From positions 1 to 33,233 of the forward strand of contig CANLJX010000018.1 of NCBI GenBank assembly GCA_947491545.1: a stretch of 33,233 nt of DNA, written 5' to 3'. Made by a program: the position numbers and the translations under genes. The notes below the pieces were generated by a model that saw nothing but the letters and a program-made list of their open reading frames with translations, ran no database searches and was not told where the DNA came from. Source of the stretch: Deltaproteobacteria bacterium (GTDB lineage: Bacteria; Bdellovibrionota_C; UBA2361; OMII01). How positions within the stretch are numbered: the stretch's first letter is position 1; the number at the start of each line of letters is the position of its first letter. Of this stretch, positions 361 through 30,461 are shown piece by piece.

Positions 361-2454
361 ATGTCCCTAGACCAGAAAGAGCAAGAGAGCATACAAGCCG
401 AGGAGCGAGTGTTCCAAACGGTGCATGGCTCTATCTCAAGCCAAGTTGACAGAGCTCGGTCGCGGTTAGCGATAGAGAATCAGCGTGCTCGGGCCCTGAC
501 CGCCGAGATTATGGAGACTCGCCGGGTCGATGACAAGGCGCTGCTCGCCTCGGACGAAGCTGTTTCGCACGGCTTAAAAGACGCAAAGCGCGAAGAGGTT
601 GAGACTCTCAAGAAGCAGCTCGATAATCCGTACTTCGCGCGAATTGAGCTTGAAGAGGAGTCTCCAGCGGGAAGTCTTGCGACGATCGAGTACAAGCTCG
701 GCTTTTCCGCCAATACAGAGTGCCGAATTATCGACTGGCGAAGAGCGCCGATCTCAAAGCTCTACTACGAGTACAAAGAGGGAGAAGAGTACTGCGAGGA
801 GATCCTTGGACGGGAGCGAAATGGCCGGGTCCGTACCCGGAACCGGATCGATGCCAAAGGCGGCAGGCTGGTGGGCATTGAGAACCGCTTTGGGAGCTTC
901 CGCTGGAACGCTGAGGACGGCGCGTGGGTTGCGGTCGGCGCCGGACGAGGTAGCAAGGGCTCTGATGGACAGCTCCCGGAGATTTTGTCTCTCATAACGG
1001 CCGAGCAGTTCCGGTCAATCACGGTTGATGCCAAGAACGCGGTGCTTATCCAAGGCATCGCAGGCTCAGGGAAAACTACTGTAGCTTTGCACCGCCTTGC
1101 ATGGCTCCTGCACAGCGACAACTCGCCGCTCAAGGCTGAGGAGGCGTGCGTGGTTGTCTTGAGTCCTGCCCTGCGTGCATACGTTGAGAATTCACTGCCC
1201 GCCGCAGGCTTAACTGGAGTTGGAGTGCGGACGTACCACGAGTGGGCGGCCAAGACATTCAAGGCGGCAGCGCGTGGCGAGGATGTGCGGATTGGGCGGG
1301 CCGCGACGGGGCAGCAGCCTCTCTCAGTTGCGCTCGTAAAGCGTTCTATAGAGATGCTCAAGGCGATCGACGTGCAGGTCCTGCCCCGCGCTGGAGAGCT
1401 GCCCAAGCTTGCGGATCTGCAGCGTGAACTGCTCCAGGTGCTCGCGGCTCTTGAGGGTCAAGGAACGCTTGCCCGTGACGCTGTGCGGCAGGCGCGAGAG
1501 CTTACCGAGAGAGACTTTGCTGACGGAATACTCGACTGGAACGACGATGCACTGCTGCTCCGAATCTTTCAGCGAATGACGGGCGGTGTGGCAACCGTGA
1601 GCGGGAAGGTCGGAAAGCTAGGGCACGTCGTAGTGGATGAGGTTCAGGACCTCTCCCCGGTGGAGCTGGCGACCCTGATTGACGCTGTCACGGACCGCAG
1701 CTCGCTTACCTTAGTAGGGGACGTTTCTCAGAACCTTGACCGCGCGCAGTCATTCCCGGGCTGGGACCAGCTCCGGCGCCACTGGAACTTCGCAGAGGAG
1801 ATGTCTCACTACGTGTCGCTTGAGGTGAGCCACCGCTCGACGCTCCCGATTATGCGTCTTGCGGATTACATCCAGCGCCGAGACCTGGTCAAATCCGGCC
1901 GTCCAGGCCGCACTCCGATCTGGTTCAAGTGCCGCAACGAGGCTCAAGGGATCGAGCACGTGCTGCAGTGGCTCACCAAGGCAGGAGAGCTCTACCCGAA
2001 TAGAATCGCGTGCGTTATCTGCGCTACCCCGCAAGATGCCAAGTTCGCCCACAAGATGCTGCAGCCGACGTTCGGTGCCCGAGTGCGCCTCGGCGACGAG
2101 TTCTCGTTCTCATTCGAAGAGGGAATACTCGTCACCGATGTTAGGCAGGCGAAGGGGCTTGAGTTCTTTTCGGTGCTACTCTGGAACCCATCTGCCCGCT
2201 CGTATCCGGCGGGAGGACTTGAACAGAATCTGCTGTACGTTGCCGTCACTCGCGCCGAAGAGAACCTGTGTATCGTTACTTGGAACAGGCCATCTCCGGC
2301 CCTGCCTGAATTTGGTGCCTCGCCCCTCATTCGCGCGCGTGATGTCTCTGCCGTGGAGGATGGTGACGAGCAAGAGAGTACAGTCGATCATCCGCTGCTC
2401 TCCGCGAATCCCTGGGCTCGATTCGGCAAGGGAGACGGCGAGCGGAATGGGTAG
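361..2454 (+). CDS. HelD-like superfamily I helicase/ATPase (UvrD/Rep family)
   Basis: This 697-residue protein resembles HelD (DNA helicase IV-like), a superfamily I motor that in Firmicutes and Actinobacteria binds RNA polymerase and recycles stalled complexes. Residues 1-110 are charged and probably coiled-coil. The HelD-style segment CRIIDWRRAPISKLYYEY follows near residue 125. Walker A is GIAGSGKTT at 232-240, Walker B is VVVDEVQDLS near 423, motif III is LVGDVSQNL near 454, and the C-terminal motif LLYVAVTRAEENL lies near 625. All ATPase motifs look intact. The ATG start is used because no better start with a ribosome site is visible; the upstream site is weak. The superfamily call is firm. 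The RNA polymerase-recycling role is inferred from the family, and a DNA repair helicase remains possible. Confidence 0.88.
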   Translation: MSLDQKEQESIQAEERVFQTVHGSISSQVDRARSRLAIENQRARALTAEIMETRRVDDKALLASDEAVSHGLKDAKREEVETLKKQLDNPYFARIELEEESPAGSLATIEYKLGFSANTECRIIDWRRAPISKLYYEYKEGEEYCEEILGRERNGRVRTRNRIDAKGGRLVGIENRFGSFRWNAEDGAWVAVGAGRGSKGSDGQLPEILSLITAEQFRSITVDAKNAVLIQGIAGSGKTTVALHRLAWLLHSDNSPLKAEEACVVVLSPALRAYVENSLPAAGLTGVGVRTYHEWAAKTFKAAARGEDVRIGRAATGQQPLSVALVKRSIEMLKAIDVQVLPRAGELPKLADLQRELLQVLAALEGQGTLARDAVRQARELTERDFADGILDWNDDALLLRIFQRMTGGVATVSGKVGKLGHVVVDEVQDLSPVELATLIDAVTDRSSLTLVGDVSQNLDRAQSFPGWDQLRRHWNFAEEMSHYVSLEVSHRSTLPIMRLADYIQRRDLVKSGRPGRTPIWFKCRNEAQGIEHVLQWLTKAGELYPNRIACVICATPQDAKFAHKMLQPTFGARVRLGDEFSFSFEEGILVTDVRQAKGLEFFSVLLWNPSARSYPAGGLEQNLLYVAVTRAEENLCIVTWNRPSPALPEFGASPLIRARDVSAVEDGDEQESTVDHPLLSANPWARFGKGDGERNG

Positions 2455-25721: not shown

Positions 25722-26567
25722 ATGGCAGACACCAAGATAGAGCAGCGATCGCAGGAGCACGCGGCGAAGCAGGATGACCTCCTGTGGACCTCTAAGCTTG
25801 CGGCTGGCCAGACTCAGGCGCTGGCTGGGCGGCTCATGCCTTCCCTCAAGTCGCGCATCGCTGGAATTCTCGACGAACGGTTCGAACGCTTTTTTAAATC
25901 CGTTGAAGATCAGGCTGCTGGCGCAAAGGAGGGAAGCTCCGTCAAGGGGAACGGAACCGAGACGTCTGCAAATGAGACACGCGCGCAGCCGTCGCAAGCC
26001 TCTAAGACACAAGATGCTGTGACGCTCGTGCGTGGGGCCTTCGATGCCGCATTGAGCGAGGCACCCCGCTTCTCGCCGCAGGCTGCTGGAGCTGAGTCCC
26101 GAGATAATCGCGAGCGACCGCCAACACAGCAGCAGGTATCCCGAAAACAGGCGCATGCGCAGCAGCTCGTCAAGATCGCCCAGTCGGCACAGCAGTCATG
26201 GGTCGCTTTCGCTGCGCAGTTAATCGGCGCAAATCTTAAGCGCCTGGGCCTTGAGCCCTCAGAGCTAGACGACATTCGGCTTTTTCTTATCCGTCAGGGT
26301 GCGGCCTCGTACGAGGAGCTAAAGAAGCTGACTCGCCTCCCGGATTCCCTCGATCCCGCAGCGGAGCTGAAGGCCCTAGAGGATATAAAGACCTTGATGC
26401 TTGCGTACGTAGTGCAGGCAACGCAGGAACAGATACTGAGCGATTTGGAGCTAGACGAGCAGAAGGAGCCAATCGGCTTTGCGAAGCCGATTGTGAACCG
26501 GTTCTCAGATATTCCGGAGAAAGAGGTCGACCCGAGCAAGCTGCTTGAGCTTGGGTTGGCGCTGTAG
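25722..26567 (+). CDS. Unknown helical cytoplasmic protein
   Basis: I do not recognise this 281-residue protein. It is hydrophilic, with no signal peptide or membrane helix. Residues 1-65 look helical (RLMPSLKSRIAGILDERFER). A polar, Ser/Thr/Gln-rich linker spans about 66-145. The C-terminal half is again helical, with VKIAQSAQQSWVAFAAQLIG and LKALEDIKTLMLAYVVQATQ. The ATG has only a weak AGGG ahead of it. A second unknown gene starts 13 bases after the stop with a good ribosome site in the gap, so the two form an operon and probably act together. Confidence 0.7.
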   Translation: MADTKIEQRSQEHAAKQDDLLWTSKLAAGQTQALAGRLMPSLKSRIAGILDERFERFFKSVEDQAAGAKEGSSVKGNGTETSANETRAQPSQASKTQDAVTLVRGAFDAALSEAPRFSPQAAGAESRDNRERPPTQQQVSRKQAHAQQLVKIAQSAQQSWVAFAAQLIGANLKRLGLEPSELDDIRLFLIRQGAASYEELKKLTRLPDSLDPAAELKALEDIKTLMLAYVVQATQEQILSDLELDEQKEPIGFAKPIVNRFSDIPEKEVDPSKLLELGLAL

Positions 26568-26580
26568 CAGGAGAGAGCAC

Positions 26581-26973
26581 ATGTTTGCGGTGATCGGAAG
26601 GTACGACGAAGTTTTTAAGATAGAGATGGATGGCTGGAGCTTTGGCATCTCGAACTATCCTGGTGAGGTATCGCCGTCGATAGTGCATCGTATCGTGCGC
26701 GAGCTCGCGTCGTCATTTCAGGCAGCGATTGAGCACAATGTCGTGATTGATATCCTTGGCCTTGCCCAGAAGTTTTCTGAGTCGGCGAAATCGCTCTTGC
26801 ACCCTGAAGAGATCGCTCTCGCTATGGTGGCACAGCTCCCGAATCCAGCGATCCTCACGGAGGAGCAGCGCTGCGTGCTCGGCCAGGTTCTTGACCGAGT
26901 TGACCAAGCCCATAGCGGCGCGCTCAACAACTTCTATCGGCGCTGGAATCTCGGTGTTCGTGATGCAGCGTAG
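26581..26973 (+). CDS. Unknown small protein
   Basis: From the ATG at 26581, preceded by CAGGAGAG, this is a 130-residue protein without signal peptide or membrane helix. An upstream start at 26545 would overlap the preceding gene and lacks a ribosome site. The N-terminus is beta-like (MFAVIGRYDEVFKIEMDGWS); the rest is helical, with two Leu/Ala-rich helices and the closing SGALNNFYRRWNLGVRDAA. I know no family for it. It is the second gene of an operon with the unknown gene at 25722 and converges on the small minus-strand gene at 27078. Confidence 0.68.
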   Translation: MFAVIGRYDEVFKIEMDGWSFGISNYPGEVSPSIVHRIVRELASSFQAAIEHNVVIDILGLAQKFSESAKSLLHPEEIALAMVAQLPNPAILTEEQRCVLGQVLDRVDQAHSGALNNFYRRWNLGVRDAA

Positions 26974-27077: not shown

Positions 27078-27407
27078 CTAATCTCTTTCTTTTCGAGGTC
27101 GTCCGCGTTTGCGCTTGCGCCTGCGGTTGCCCATGTCAATCCAGAGCAGCTTGTCCCGTCGAGAAGAAGCGCCGATCGCTTTTCTGGACAGAAGGCTGCG
27201 GATAGCTCGCTGCTCCTTTGCGCTCGATTTCTCAAGCAGCTGTCGCAGACGAAGCCCTCTGTTTGCCACCAACACCCGCAGGTTTAAGAGCTGCTTGTTC
27301 AGCTCCTCTTTTTCCCTGCAGCGGTTTCTTATCTGGCGAAGGCAGAGGCTAAGCTCCTCCGAGATTGTCTCCGCTTCCAAAACCGCCGTGCAGACTCGTT
27401 TGGCCAT
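27078..27407 (-). CDS. Small coiled-coil protein with basic AT-hook-like tail
   Basis: This 109-residue protein is mostly one long helix rich in Leu, Glu and Arg (EELNKQLLNLRVLVANRGLR). It ends in the strongly basic tail RRRKRKRGRPRKERD, whose RGRPRK core is AT-hook-like, suggesting nucleic-acid binding. The start at 27407 has GGGGG about five bases ahead and aligns with the start of the sister gene at 28020; an ATG at 27455 would place the start inside the leader hairpin. The KEQRAIRSLL and LLWIDM segments recur in altered form in the sister protein. The function is unknown. Confidence 0.6.
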   Translation of the reverse strand: MAKRVCTAVLEAETISEELSLCLRQIRNRCREKEELNKQLLNLRVLVANRGLRLRQLLEKSSAKEQRAIRSLLSRKAIGASSRRDKLLWIDMGNRRRKRKRGRPRKERD

Positions 27408-27455
27408 GTTTGCCCCCAGAGTGCGCGTGAAATCAAGTAAGAACCTGGCGCACAT

Positions 27456-27543
27456 CAGGCTCTCTCGCCGTCACGCCGCTGCGTGCCGGAAAGAGAGCCT
27501 GAAAAAAACCTGGCCGTACGACTCTTCCCATATGAAGGCGGCC
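27456..27543 (-). promoter_or_regulatory. Hairpin/T-tract/hairpin leader of the 27078 gene
   Basis: Read on the minus strand, a hairpin (GGCCG with CGGCC, 27543-27512, with CTTC/GAAG inside) is followed by T7 (27508-27502). A second, very stable hairpin follows at once: CAGGCTCTCT with AGAGAGCCTG (27501-27456), with CCG-CACGC/GCGTG-CGG stacked inside. The first hairpin with the T-tract looks like an intrinsic terminator; the second lies in the leader of the small gene. The same arrangement occurs at 28058-28154. Confidence 0.6.
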
Positions 27544-27686
27544 GGGGGACCCTGGCTACGCCGATACGGCGCAAGCCTCTCACATCCGTATTTCTTAAGA
27601 CAAAAAGTTCCCGCGGCTGTCGGAATTAACGAGAAAAAGTCGTTTATGCGCCGGAATAGCGAGACGATGGGGGGAGATGCTCGGCC

Positions 27687-27710
27687 AATAAAACACAGTC
27701 AAAAACTGTG
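27687..27710 (-). terminator. Short intrinsic terminator of the 27745 gene
   Basis: On the minus strand, 35 bases after the stop, CACAGT-TTTTG-ACTGTG is followed by TTTTATT. The stem is only six pairs, so efficiency may be modest. An exact palindrome GGAGATCTCC lies just upstream of it at 27712-27721. Confidence 0.55.
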
Positions 27711-27744
27711 CGGAGATCTCCCTCGCAGCGATGACAGAAGCTCT

Positions 27745-28020
27745 TTACGAGTCAGTCGTTGGCGCACTTAGCAGATCCTTCCACAGGTGCTTCTCCTGAG
27801 GGAGCTTAAACCTCCTCCGTTGACGATCAAGGGCGGCGTCGATAGTTCTCCGTTCACCATCCGAAGCCGAAGCGAGAATCGACCGAAGCTCAACTTCAAG
27901 GCTTGAGCGCTCAAGTCTAGCCACAATCGATTTTCGCCTGTATTCGGCCTGACGTCGCTGCTTGTCAGCGATGCGCCGTATCAGATCATTCGCCCGTTCT
28001 ATCCGTTGAGAGCTTTCCAA
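27745..28020 (-). CDS. Small coiled-coil protein, sister of the 27078 gene
   Basis: This 91-residue, highly charged protein is predicted to be nearly all helix (RRIADKQRRQAEYRRKSIVA). The start is the TTG at 28020, because a near-perfect AGGAGG lies seven bases upstream; the longer frame from 28038 would include that ribosome site. The segments ERRTIDAALDRQRR and KHLWKDLL resemble EQRAIRSLLSRK and KLLWIDM of the neighbouring protein, and the upstream DNA of both genes is alike, so the pair probably arose by duplication. It lacks the AT-hook-like tail. The function is unknown. Confidence 0.65.
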   Translation of the reverse strand: MESSQRIERANDLIRRIADKQRRQAEYRRKSIVARLERSSLEVELRSILASASDGERRTIDAALDRQRRRFKLPQEKHLWKDLLSAPTTDS

Positions 28021-28057
28021 GAGCGGACCTCCTATCAAGCAAGAGCGCCGCGAAGTG

Positions 28058-28154
28058 CGGGAGCTCTCACCGTAGCAGGCTCGCCTGCGGCGGTGGGAGC
28101 TCCCGAAAAAACCTGTTTGCCGAGCATCTTCCCAAAAGCGAGAAAAAGATGCTC
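28058..28154 (-). promoter_or_regulatory. Hairpin/T-tract/hairpin leader of the 27745 gene
   Basis: On the minus strand GAGCATCTT pairs with AAGATGCTC (28154-28122). A ten-base spacer and T6 (28111-28106) follow, then a nearly perfect hairpin of about 48 bases (28105-28058; CGGGAGCTC arms with GCAGGC/GCCTGC at the tip). The first part could end fadJ transcription; the second lies in the leader of the small gene. Spacer sequence CAGGTTTTTT and the TTCTTACTTGAT/CTCTTGCTTGAT stretch after the hairpin are shared with the element at 27456-27543. Confidence 0.62.
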
Positions 28155-28242: not shown

Positions 28243-30348
28243 CTACTGAGCAACCGCCCGCTCTACACGCAGAGAGAAGGGCGAGTACCGAGAGCCGAAG
28301 CGCCGCTCAAGCTCGGAGAGCTTCGAGTGAATCAGCGCAAGCCCGCGGCTGTGCGCAAAGTGCAGCACTCCGCCCCTAAAAGGCGGGAAGCCGATCCCCA
28401 TCACGGTGCCGAGATCGATCTGCTTCTCGGCGAGTTCTCGGTCACTTCCGGCGACACCCTCGTCTAAGCACTTCATCGCCTCATTGACGAGGTGGTACAC
28501 AAGCCGCTCTGCGATCTCTTCGCGTGAAGCTGCCGTTTCTGGCCTTGCCGGAAGCCCAAGTGCTGAGGCGAGCCCCTCCCACGGCTTGCTCTCCTTGCCG
28601 TGGTATTCGAAGAAGCCAGCGCTAGACTTCCGCCCTTTGCGCCCAAGCTCCATCAGCTTCTCGGCGAAGTTCGGCACAGCCATGCGCTCGCCGTAGCCTT
28701 CAACCATGATCTTTGACACGTGCGCTGCAACGTCAAGACCGACCTCGTCGAGCAAGCGGATCGGTCCCATCGGCATGCCGAAGGCAAGGGCTGCGCCGTC
28801 AATCTCCTGAACCGAGTGCCCCTCCTGAAGGAGGTACACCGCCTCGTTAAGGTAGGGAATGAGGATGCGGTTTACAAGGAAGCCCGGTCCGTCGCGCACT
28901 ACGATTGGAAATTTCCCCATCTCGGTGGCGAGAGCTGCGACCTTCGCGATGGCTTCGTCGCTCGTCTTTTCGCCGCGAATAATCTCGACGAGGGGCATCT
29001 TCTCTACAGGGTTGAAGAAGTGCATCCCGACGAATCGCTCTGGGTGCGGCAGACTTTCAGCCATCTCAGTGACTGAGAGAGATGAGGTGTTCGACGCGAG
29101 GATGCAGGCAGGCGACACCTCCTTAGCGAGCCCGGCGAAGATCTTCTTCTTGAGCCCCATATCCTCGAAGACGGCCTCGATCGCGATCCCTGAACGCGAC
29201 ACCGTATCGCTTGAGAACTGCAGCCAGTCGATGCGGTTACCGACCGCCGCGCGCTCGAATGAAGAAAGGTAGCGCAGCTTCGAGAGCTCCTTCGTTACGT
29301 GGTCTTTGCCGCGCTTGAGCGAGCTCTCCGAAGTGTCTTTGACGATTACCTGGTGCGAGGAGCGAGCGAGGGCTCCAGCTATCCCCGCGCCCATCGTGCC
29401 GGCGCCGACTACCAGCGCGTGCATCTTCTCTATGTCTTTGCGAGCTGACTTTCCGAGAGCCTTGGATGCTTCAGTCAGGAAGAAGATGTGCACGAGTGAC
29501 TTGCTTTCAGGAGTAACGATCAAGTTTCCAAGCTCTCGAGCCTCGATCCCGAGCGCGTCAACGCGACTCCGTCCGAGCCCTGAGACGGTAAGGTCAAGCG
29601 CCTTCGGTGGGGCAGGGTAGAAGCCTTTGGTTTGGGCCATCATGGCAGAGCGGGCGCGGCTTCGAACAAAGGAACGTCCGAGGAGATTTGAAGAGAGCAG
29701 CCAATCAGCGAGGCGCAGCTTGCGTGGCTTAGGAAGCCGCTGTCCTCGCGCGATCTCCTCGGCGCGCGCAAAGATCTTCTCTGCCGACACAACCTCGTCT
29801 ACCAGCGAGGCTTTTAGTGCTTGCGAGGCCTTGAGAGTCTTTCCGGCGAGGATTATGTCGAGAGCCTTCGGAAGCCCCACCACGCGCGGCAAGCGGTACG
29901 TCCCGCCGAAGCCTGGGAGGATCCCGAGCTTCGTTTCTGGGAGGCCGATCGAGCTGGCGGGCAGGTCGGCGATGATGCGGTACTGGCACGCGAGAACCAT
30001 CTCGCAGCCGCCACCGACACATGGGCCGCCGATCGCCGCTACCGTCGTAATGCCAAGGTCCTCAAGCTGGTCGTAGGCGCGCTGTCCCTGGGCAGCTAGC
30101 TCTGAGCCCTTTGTTGGCTCGGTCACGCCCTGGATAAGAGAGATATCCGCCCCGACGCAGAACGATTCGATTGAAGGGGCTCGGACAACGAGCCCACGGG
30201 CGTTTGACTGGGCGACCTTTGAGAGGGCGGCAACGAAGGAGGTAATCCTGGCGGGGGTGAGGGTGATTGCACGCTCCTCTGGGGCGCCTAAGGTGAGTGT
30301 TGCGACTAGTCCGTCGCTGGAGAAAGAGAGGTCAACTGTGCCGGTCAT
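28243..30348 (-). CDS. Fatty-oxidation multifunctional protein (enoyl-CoA hydratase/3-hydroxyacyl-CoA dehydrogenase)
   Basis: This FadB/FadJ-type alpha subunit performs the hydration and NAD-dependent dehydrogenation steps of beta-oxidation. From the ATG at 30348 (GGAA nine bases upstream) it has 701 residues. The N-terminal crotonase domain shows CVGADIS, the oxyanion-hole region GGPCVGGGCEMVLAC, and GLPETKLGILPGFGGT with the two catalytic glutamates. The dehydrogenase domain has VVGAGTMGAGIAG, HFFNPVEKMPLVEIIRG and GPGFLVNRILIPYLNEA. FadB and FadJ cannot be told apart here; the short length favours FadJ. No thiolase (FadA/FadI) gene adjoins it, so its partner must be encoded elsewhere. A 113-base gap separates it from divergent cysQ. 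Confidence 0.95.
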   Translation of the reverse strand: MTGTVDLSFSSDGLVATLTLGAPEERAITLTPARITSFVAALSKVAQSNARGLVVRAPSIESFCVGADISLIQGVTEPTKGSELAAQGQRAYDQLEDLGITTVAAIGGPCVGGGCEMVLACQYRIIADLPASSIGLPETKLGILPGFGGTYRLPRVVGLPKALDIILAGKTLKASQALKASLVDEVVSAEKIFARAEEIARGQRLPKPRKLRLADWLLSSNLLGRSFVRSRARSAMMAQTKGFYPAPPKALDLTVSGLGRSRVDALGIEARELGNLIVTPESKSLVHIFFLTEASKALGKSARKDIEKMHALVVGAGTMGAGIAGALARSSHQVIVKDTSESSLKRGKDHVTKELSKLRYLSSFERAAVGNRIDWLQFSSDTVSRSGIAIEAVFEDMGLKKKIFAGLAKEVSPACILASNTSSLSVTEMAESLPHPERFVGMHFFNPVEKMPLVEIIRGEKTSDEAIAKVAALATEMGKFPIVVRDGPGFLVNRILIPYLNEAVYLLQEGHSVQEIDGAALAFGMPMGPIRLLDEVGLDVAAHVSKIMVEGYGERMAVPNFAEKLMELGRKGRKSSAGFFEYHGKESKPWEGLASALGLPARPETAASREEIAERLVYHLVNEAMKCLDEGVAGSDRELAEKQIDLGTVMGIGFPPFRGGVLHFAHSRGLALIHSKLSELERRFGSRYSPFSLRVERAVAQ

Positions 30349-30461
30349 GGTCTTTTCCGAAAATCGTGGGCTTGAGCCGCTAAGCGCCCAGCCTTGTTGC
30401 AAGATATCAGCGCCGATTCCGCCGTGTCGACATACAATTCGCGGGCGGGTACTATTGTCGG

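Follow-up and report, generated by a model that had tools for sequence, protein, structure and literature searches.

What are the blocks of T-tract and hairpin that precede each of two adjacent small orphan genes, here called A and B, and do they act in the control of these genes? The genes lie in a 33,233-nt stretch of DNA (the window), contig 18 of an assembly of 3.0 Mb and 84% completeness from an uncultured bacterium, whose named relatives are metagenome assemblies from freshwater and estuarine environments labelled Proteobacteria or delta proteobacterium. We see about an even chance that the blocks are a genus-restricted, undescribed cis-acting 5' leader RNA that controls orphan small proteins, probably via a shared host factor. 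Since a small gene of no relation to A and B, at another place in the genome, has a similar leader, the block is probably a gene-control element not described before.

Genomic context of genes A and B

Genes A and B occupy an interval bounded by fadJ and by gene C, which is convergent to B (Table 1). In more distant members of the order (G025, G027, and G017), fadJ and gene C adjoin, about 50 bp apart, so that A and B were inserted between the two in one subclade. The A orthologue in the relative G011 and the B orthologue in G006 are likewise placed between fadJ and gene C, and the interval has different content in other members of the genus (G010 and G009).

The stretch between fadJ and gene C is a hot spot for insertions (L092:3480-4440; L093:240-2130): G010 has a toxin-antitoxin-like pair of the Gp49/HTH type there, and G009 has a Y1 (IS200-like) transposase-type gene along with a small cysteine-rich, secreted-looking protein. 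Gene D (281 aa) and gene C (130 aa), together at 25722-26973 on the plus strand, are without a confident family; gene C, present in 29 of 58 genomes, is conserved throughout the order and has a weak FliM-like match.

Table 1. Positions of genes and leader parts in the window, and of C57-type leaders with their genes
Feature	Position	Strand	Basis and remarks
fadJ	28243-30402	-	domain matches
Leader A, hairpin H1 (GAGCATC..GATGCTC)	28122-28154	-	fold
Leader A, GGGAAGA in 3' half of H1	28133-28127	-	GGGRAGA kept in all four leaders
Leader A, T6 tract (CAGGTTTTTT)	28106-28111	-	sequence; T7 in G011 orthologue
Leader A, hairpin H2 (9 bp, 1x1 loop, 5 bp, 2x2 loop, 5 bp)	28058-28105	-	fold, compensatory changes, CM match 86.8 bits
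CTTGAT linker directly before SD of A	28034-28039	-	sequence; CTTGGG in G011
AGGAGG, SD of gene A	28033-28028	-	sequence
Gene A, 91-aa basic helical orphan protein, TTG start at 28020	27745-28020	-	ORF; G011 orthologue; AlphaFold
Terminator-like stem + TTTTATT, just after gene A	27693-27711	-	consensus scan only; regional number at chance level
Leader B, hairpin H1, terminator-like, flush with T-tract	27509-27546	-	loop contains CATATGGGAAGAG
Leader B, T7 tract (CCAGGTTTTTTT)	27502-27508	-	sequence; identical in G006
Leader B, hairpin H2	27456-27501	-	fold, covariation with G006, CM match 89.5 bits
Leader B, third stem H3 (GTGCGC..GCGCAC)	27421-27453	-	fold; encloses CTTGAT at 27437-27432
Gene B, 109-aa basic helical paralogue of A, ATG start at 27407	27078-27407	-	ORF; G006 orthologue; AlphaFold
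Gene C (130 aa), conserved	26581-26973	+	convergent to B
C57-type leader + gene for 100-112-aa protein	L233:1498-1996	-	
C57-type leader + gene for 100-112-aa protein	L234:1270-1785	+	
C57-type leader + gene for 100-112-aa protein	L235:1258-1773	+	
C57-type leader + gene for 100-112-aa protein	L236:1477-1998	-	

Two fast-evolving paralogues

The initial annotation described two neighboring minus-strand genes for small, basic, helical proteins whose C-terminal halves can be aligned, one of them with an AT-hook-like tail, and the analysis bears out this description. The proteins have pI values of 10.8 (A) and 11.5 (B), and their AlphaFold models are all-helical (pLDDT of 92 for A and 86 for B). 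The likely starts differ from those of the longest ORFs, and gene B has GGGGGC as its SD. Proteins A and B are homologous (local score = 71, z = 5.1, 0 of 1,000 shuffles), and protein A aligns with the B protein of G006 at a z of 7.4; judged by these alignments, A and B are diverged paralogues. Protein B has a long helix (2-60) and a C-terminal AT-hook (RKRGRPRK), of which KRGRPRK is present also in the G006 orthologue. The charge, the helices, and the AT-hook in B suggest that both are probably small nucleic-acid-binding proteins.

The A orthologue in G011 is 36% identical (E = 7e-10), with TTG start, SD position, and length all matching, and the B orthologue in G006 is about 31% identical over the aligned part. 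Because fadJ and gene C are 73 to 80% identical between these same genomes, A and B evolve fast. A profile of the family (A1) returned the same four genes only, from 3 of the 46 genomes of the class and phylum that were searched. Sequence and profile searches of Pfam, NCBIfam, and PDB matched no known family to either protein, and a fold search with protein A (Foldseek) gave nothing significant (best E of 1.3, in PDB). In searches for anti-phage defense or phage proteins, PADLOC and PHROG models gave no significant match for either protein, viral contigs contained no relative of A or B, and phage and plasmid records contained none of A; a mobile or viral origin was rejected on these absences in viral contigs (A and B) and in phages and plasmids (A). 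The terminator-like stem after gene A suggests that A and B are separate transcription units, to the extent that a consensus scan with a chance-level count can suggest it.

Layout of the leaders

In both leaders, we observed the layout GGGRAGA-N12-14-GG-T6-7-H2-linker-SD, in which hairpin H2 is 46 to 48 nt long and has its first base directly after the T-tract. The T6 or T7 tract followed by a stable second hairpin had been noticed ahead of both genes, and the abutting H2 and the folding of the leaders against shuffles (z = -3.2 for A and -4.1 for B) agree with that reading. The shared linker bases that had also been pointed out, CAGGTTTTTT and CTTGAT, are indeed common to leaders A and B. The pattern GGGRAGA-N8-18-GGTTTTTT has exactly two sites in the bacterium's own genome, namely, leaders A and B; as a genome-wide motif, GGTTTTTT was not supported, with SMGGTTTTTT not enriched over a reversed control. 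The promoters of A and B showed no convincing -10, and TTTTGACAAG is conserved before A. The arms of the third stem of leader B, H3, are identical in G006 and hence offer no covariation test.

A conserved upstream ORF over the H2 hairpin of leader B (..RFFSG.LS..GERA) was considered and rejected because the GGGAAGAG frame differs between leader B and its G006 counterpart (a 1-nt gap) and because the changes follow the base pairs. Two possible relics of a lost partner's leader were seen in the relatives: in G006, a CAGG-T8 accompanied by a short hairpin lies upstream of B (L091, about 2100-2200, minus strand), and in G011, a GAGG-T7 lies downstream of A (L108:590-599, plus strand).

Conservation and rarity of hairpin H2

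The initial annotation held that the hairpin stems differ in sequence and keep their form, as under selection on structure, and H2 fits this well. Across the four leaders, from three genomes (A, B, the A leader of G011, and the B leader of G006), H2 has 19 pairs, 10 of them with two-sided changes, and 92.1% of its cells are paired, against 34 to 49% with the partners slid; none of 500 shuffles reaches 92.1%. Given such compensatory changes in two paralogues and two orthologues, selection on the structure of H2 is well supported, homogenization of the inverted-repeat arms being a rival account.

A covariance model spanning GG, T-tract, H2, and tail (R1), in line with the search of relatives that had been proposed, found H2 kept in G011 (A) and G006 (B) and matched the four A/B leaders only among 58 genomes, three further matches being the reverse strands of the same hairpins. 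The hairpin is also rare for its place: in 833 kb of the own genome, 3 of 257 tracts of at least six T's are directly followed by a stem of at least 8 bp, and the H2 stems of A and B are the longest of these (9 and 10 bp), a stem of at least 9 bp occurring at 0.07% of random positions. Leader identity is 61 to 76% for A and B, compared with 56 to 57% for the coding parts, as counted over the longer length. The cells include 3 of G-U and 2 of A-C, a balance that does not distinguish RNA from DNA for the A/B leaders alone.

A similar leader before an unrelated gene

When R1 was run with laxer filters on three genomes, a third site emerged in the own genome, on contig C57 (C57:6695-6789; E = 0.0034). 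The gene behind it, located between a rhodanese-domain gene and feoB, is small (106 aa) and fast-evolving, with orthologues in G006, G010, and G011 at 31 to 33% alignment identity, and its protein shows no homology to A and B (hhalign probability of 0.1). The first part of this leader consists of a hairpin (GUGAGCUCUUAUCGGAG..UGCGACGAGGGCUCAC), a linker, and GGUUUU (or GUUUU), and the second part of a long hairpin with a CUCYCUUGA core followed by GGAUGGG; a TTGGACTTA box is conserved upstream of the gene.

The three C57 leaders tested fold with z values of -5.0, -6.1, and -6.0. Their consensus structure, derived from the same four leaders of four genomes on which it was scored, has 37 pairs, 97.3% of cells paired, and 13 two-sided changed cells (0 of 500 shuffles), in an alignment that includes conserved columns uninformative on pairing. 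G-U cells number 18 and A-C cells 1, an excess indicating that the sense-strand RNA of the gene is the selected form. Identity is 57 to 69% in the leaders versus 51 to 57% in the coding parts, again counted over the longer length. The C57-type leader, which is not in Rfam, is the strongest structured RNA observed in the analysis.

Without any model, we also scanned 1.87 Mb of the own genome for a run of at least four T's followed by a hairpin with 11 or more net pairs and, after it, an SD and an ORF. Five places came up, namely, leaders A and B, the leader on C57, a repeat of low complexity, and an inverted-repeat hairpin of the ACAAAGAGAGC type. A model built from the C57 leaders (R2) does not recover the A/B leaders, and common descent of the two leader types thus rests on one R1 match and the layout; their convergence is possible. 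In roughly half of the own genome, R2 found nothing but C57 itself above background, and a 21.9-bit match on contig C21 (L212:15981-16049) was not accepted, as it overlaps the start of a 98-aa ORF.

Alternative explanations

The first hairpin, H1, had been called terminator-like in both leaders, which stood for B but not for A. In leader B, H1 is flush with the T-tract, with one C-A mismatch, and a flush stem is present also in the G006 orthologue, where CCTGGAC..GTCCAGG replaces the window's stem and the stem changes are partly compensatory. These features would suit a transcription attenuator, in which H1 and the U-tract form an intrinsic terminator with regulated read-through and H2 is merely 5' end structure. 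However, the stem of leader A ends about 10 nt before its U6, the A leader of G011 is without a good flush stem, and upstream stems of at least 7 bp are not enriched at T6 tracts of the own genome (34% versus 32% at random positions). The hairpin-then-U-tract order of known intrinsic terminator and attenuator leaders is shared by leader B, a GC-rich stem flush with the U-tract is not found in all copies, and the strongest hairpin here comes after the U-tract. The conserved upstream part is GGGRAGA-N12-14-GGT6, not the H1 stem, and H2 and H1 do not overlap, so that no antiterminator is evident. H1 is the weakest part of the element and H2 the strongest; attenuation at the T-tract has weak support, confined to B, and as an account of the whole element we consider it quite improbable. 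Lower still we place the possibility that H2 is a DNA inverted repeat without RNA function, either one whose arms are kept alike through template-switch (quasipalindrome) mutation or a hairpin element that is mobile. Template switching is known to homogenize the arms of imperfect inverted repeats (PMC8604942, PMC7202029), and the own genome has repeated hairpin families. Yet the exact place of H2 between T-tract and SD is kept in two paralogues and two orthologues, its sequence is not repeated elsewhere, and the 18:1 excess of G-U over A-C in the C57 leaders would not be expected from homogenization of arms.

Autogenous control, which we regard as unlikely but ahead of the other alternatives, would mean that proteins A and B recognize the leaders of their own genes and hold down the expression of themselves and of one another, in the manner of H-NS/StpA or ribosomal-protein leaders, the target being the hairpin and U-tract in RNA or, through the AT-hook, the T/A tract in DNA. 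In its favor, the two proteins are basic and helical, the AT-hook is kept in both B proteins, the leader was retained by both paralogues after duplication, and there is a precedent in H-NS and StpA, paralogues with negative auto- and cross-regulation (PMC6936261). On the other hand, G011 keeps T7 and H2 and its only family member found is without an AT-hook, which argues against a loop between AT-hook and T-tract, and a protein family unrelated to A and B has a similar leader. The suggestion of the initial annotation that the leader RNA is the target of the proteins found no direct support, and the same two observations weigh against it, leaving it a possibility of low probability. Unrelated proteins with the same kind of leader make a shared host factor likelier than self-binding. 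They could also mean that the RNA is kept while the protein changes: a genus-specific leader RNA would be the conserved, functional part, and its partners at several chromosomal sites would be small basic proteins that are unrelated to one another and soon replaced, the whole perhaps serving in conflict or defense; this we find doubtful, ranking it between autogenous control and attenuation.

Proposed role of the leader

Under the reading that we prefer, a cis-acting leader RNA served by a shared host factor, each paralogous orphan gene carries its own leader copy, made up of a GGGRAGA-bearing upstream hairpin, a single-stranded GG-U6-7 platform, the long stable H2, and then the SD region. The leader may set the protein amount, with translation and mRNA decay controlled after the promoter. 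The U-platform between the two stems could be the docking site for a trans-acting cell factor, either an RNA-binding protein or a small RNA, and H2 would hold this platform in place and keep upstream structure away from the ribosome site. The own genome has a clear CsrA gene (L247, minus strand, reading frame near residue 5727), and since GGGRAGA and GGAUGGG fit the AnGGA core poorly, CsrA control is only a lead; no Hfq motif was found in 62% of the own genome.

If this reading is true, the leaders make up a structured-leader family new to description, from a bacterial genus not yet cultured, and are better conserved than the genes behind them. They would then offer a way to study how orphan genes of short lifetime come under regulation, and would suggest a trans-acting RNA-binding factor for which one can look.

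Comparison with known elements

At the gathering threshold, the single Rfam match in the window was a tRNA, and at an E of up to 1 Rfam gave nothing meaningful for the A/B or C57 leaders. A conserved RNA structure lies directly upstream of orthologous genes at both A/B and C57, and the element would work like structured 5' leaders in general, without membership in any named family. Like the diverse S15/rpsO leaders, which are autogenous ribosomal-protein leaders (PMC4137082), the A/B leaders are structured 5' leaders before small basic protein genes and keep their shape over their letters; in contrast to them, the A/B proteins are orphan and nonribosomal, the leader layout is common to two unrelated protein families, and binding is putative.

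The pair also recalls the DNA-bridging H-NS-like proteins (H-NS, StpA, Lsr2, MvaT) in its long N-terminal helix, which in B may serve oligomerization, its paralogy, and the C-terminal AT-hook motif of B, with one member lacking the putative DNA-binding tail (compare H-NST). The likeness is in layout only, as the AT-hook of B is a bare basic tail, and no sequence or fold similarity of A/B to H-NS, Lsr2, MvaT, or Rok was found in Pfam, NCBIfam, PDB, or Foldseek searches. In type III toxin-antitoxin systems (ToxIN), a structured RNA lies just upstream of a small protein gene, as in A/B. The leaders differ in that they hold no tandem RNA repeat and no terminator between RNA and gene was shown at A/B, and Pfam and PADLOC revealed no ToxN/CptN/TenpN-type protein.

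The many near-identical copies of a MITE or REP family were not found for this element, which has two copies here and one diverged site. MITE- or REP-like hairpin families do occur in the own genome, namely, ACAAAGAGAGC..GCTCTCTTTGT (L193, L196, L202, L203, and L265), GTTTTCGGCGC..GCGCCGAAAAC (L198, L204, L220, and L221), and TACTACAAGGTCTCTGAGA (L197 and L209).
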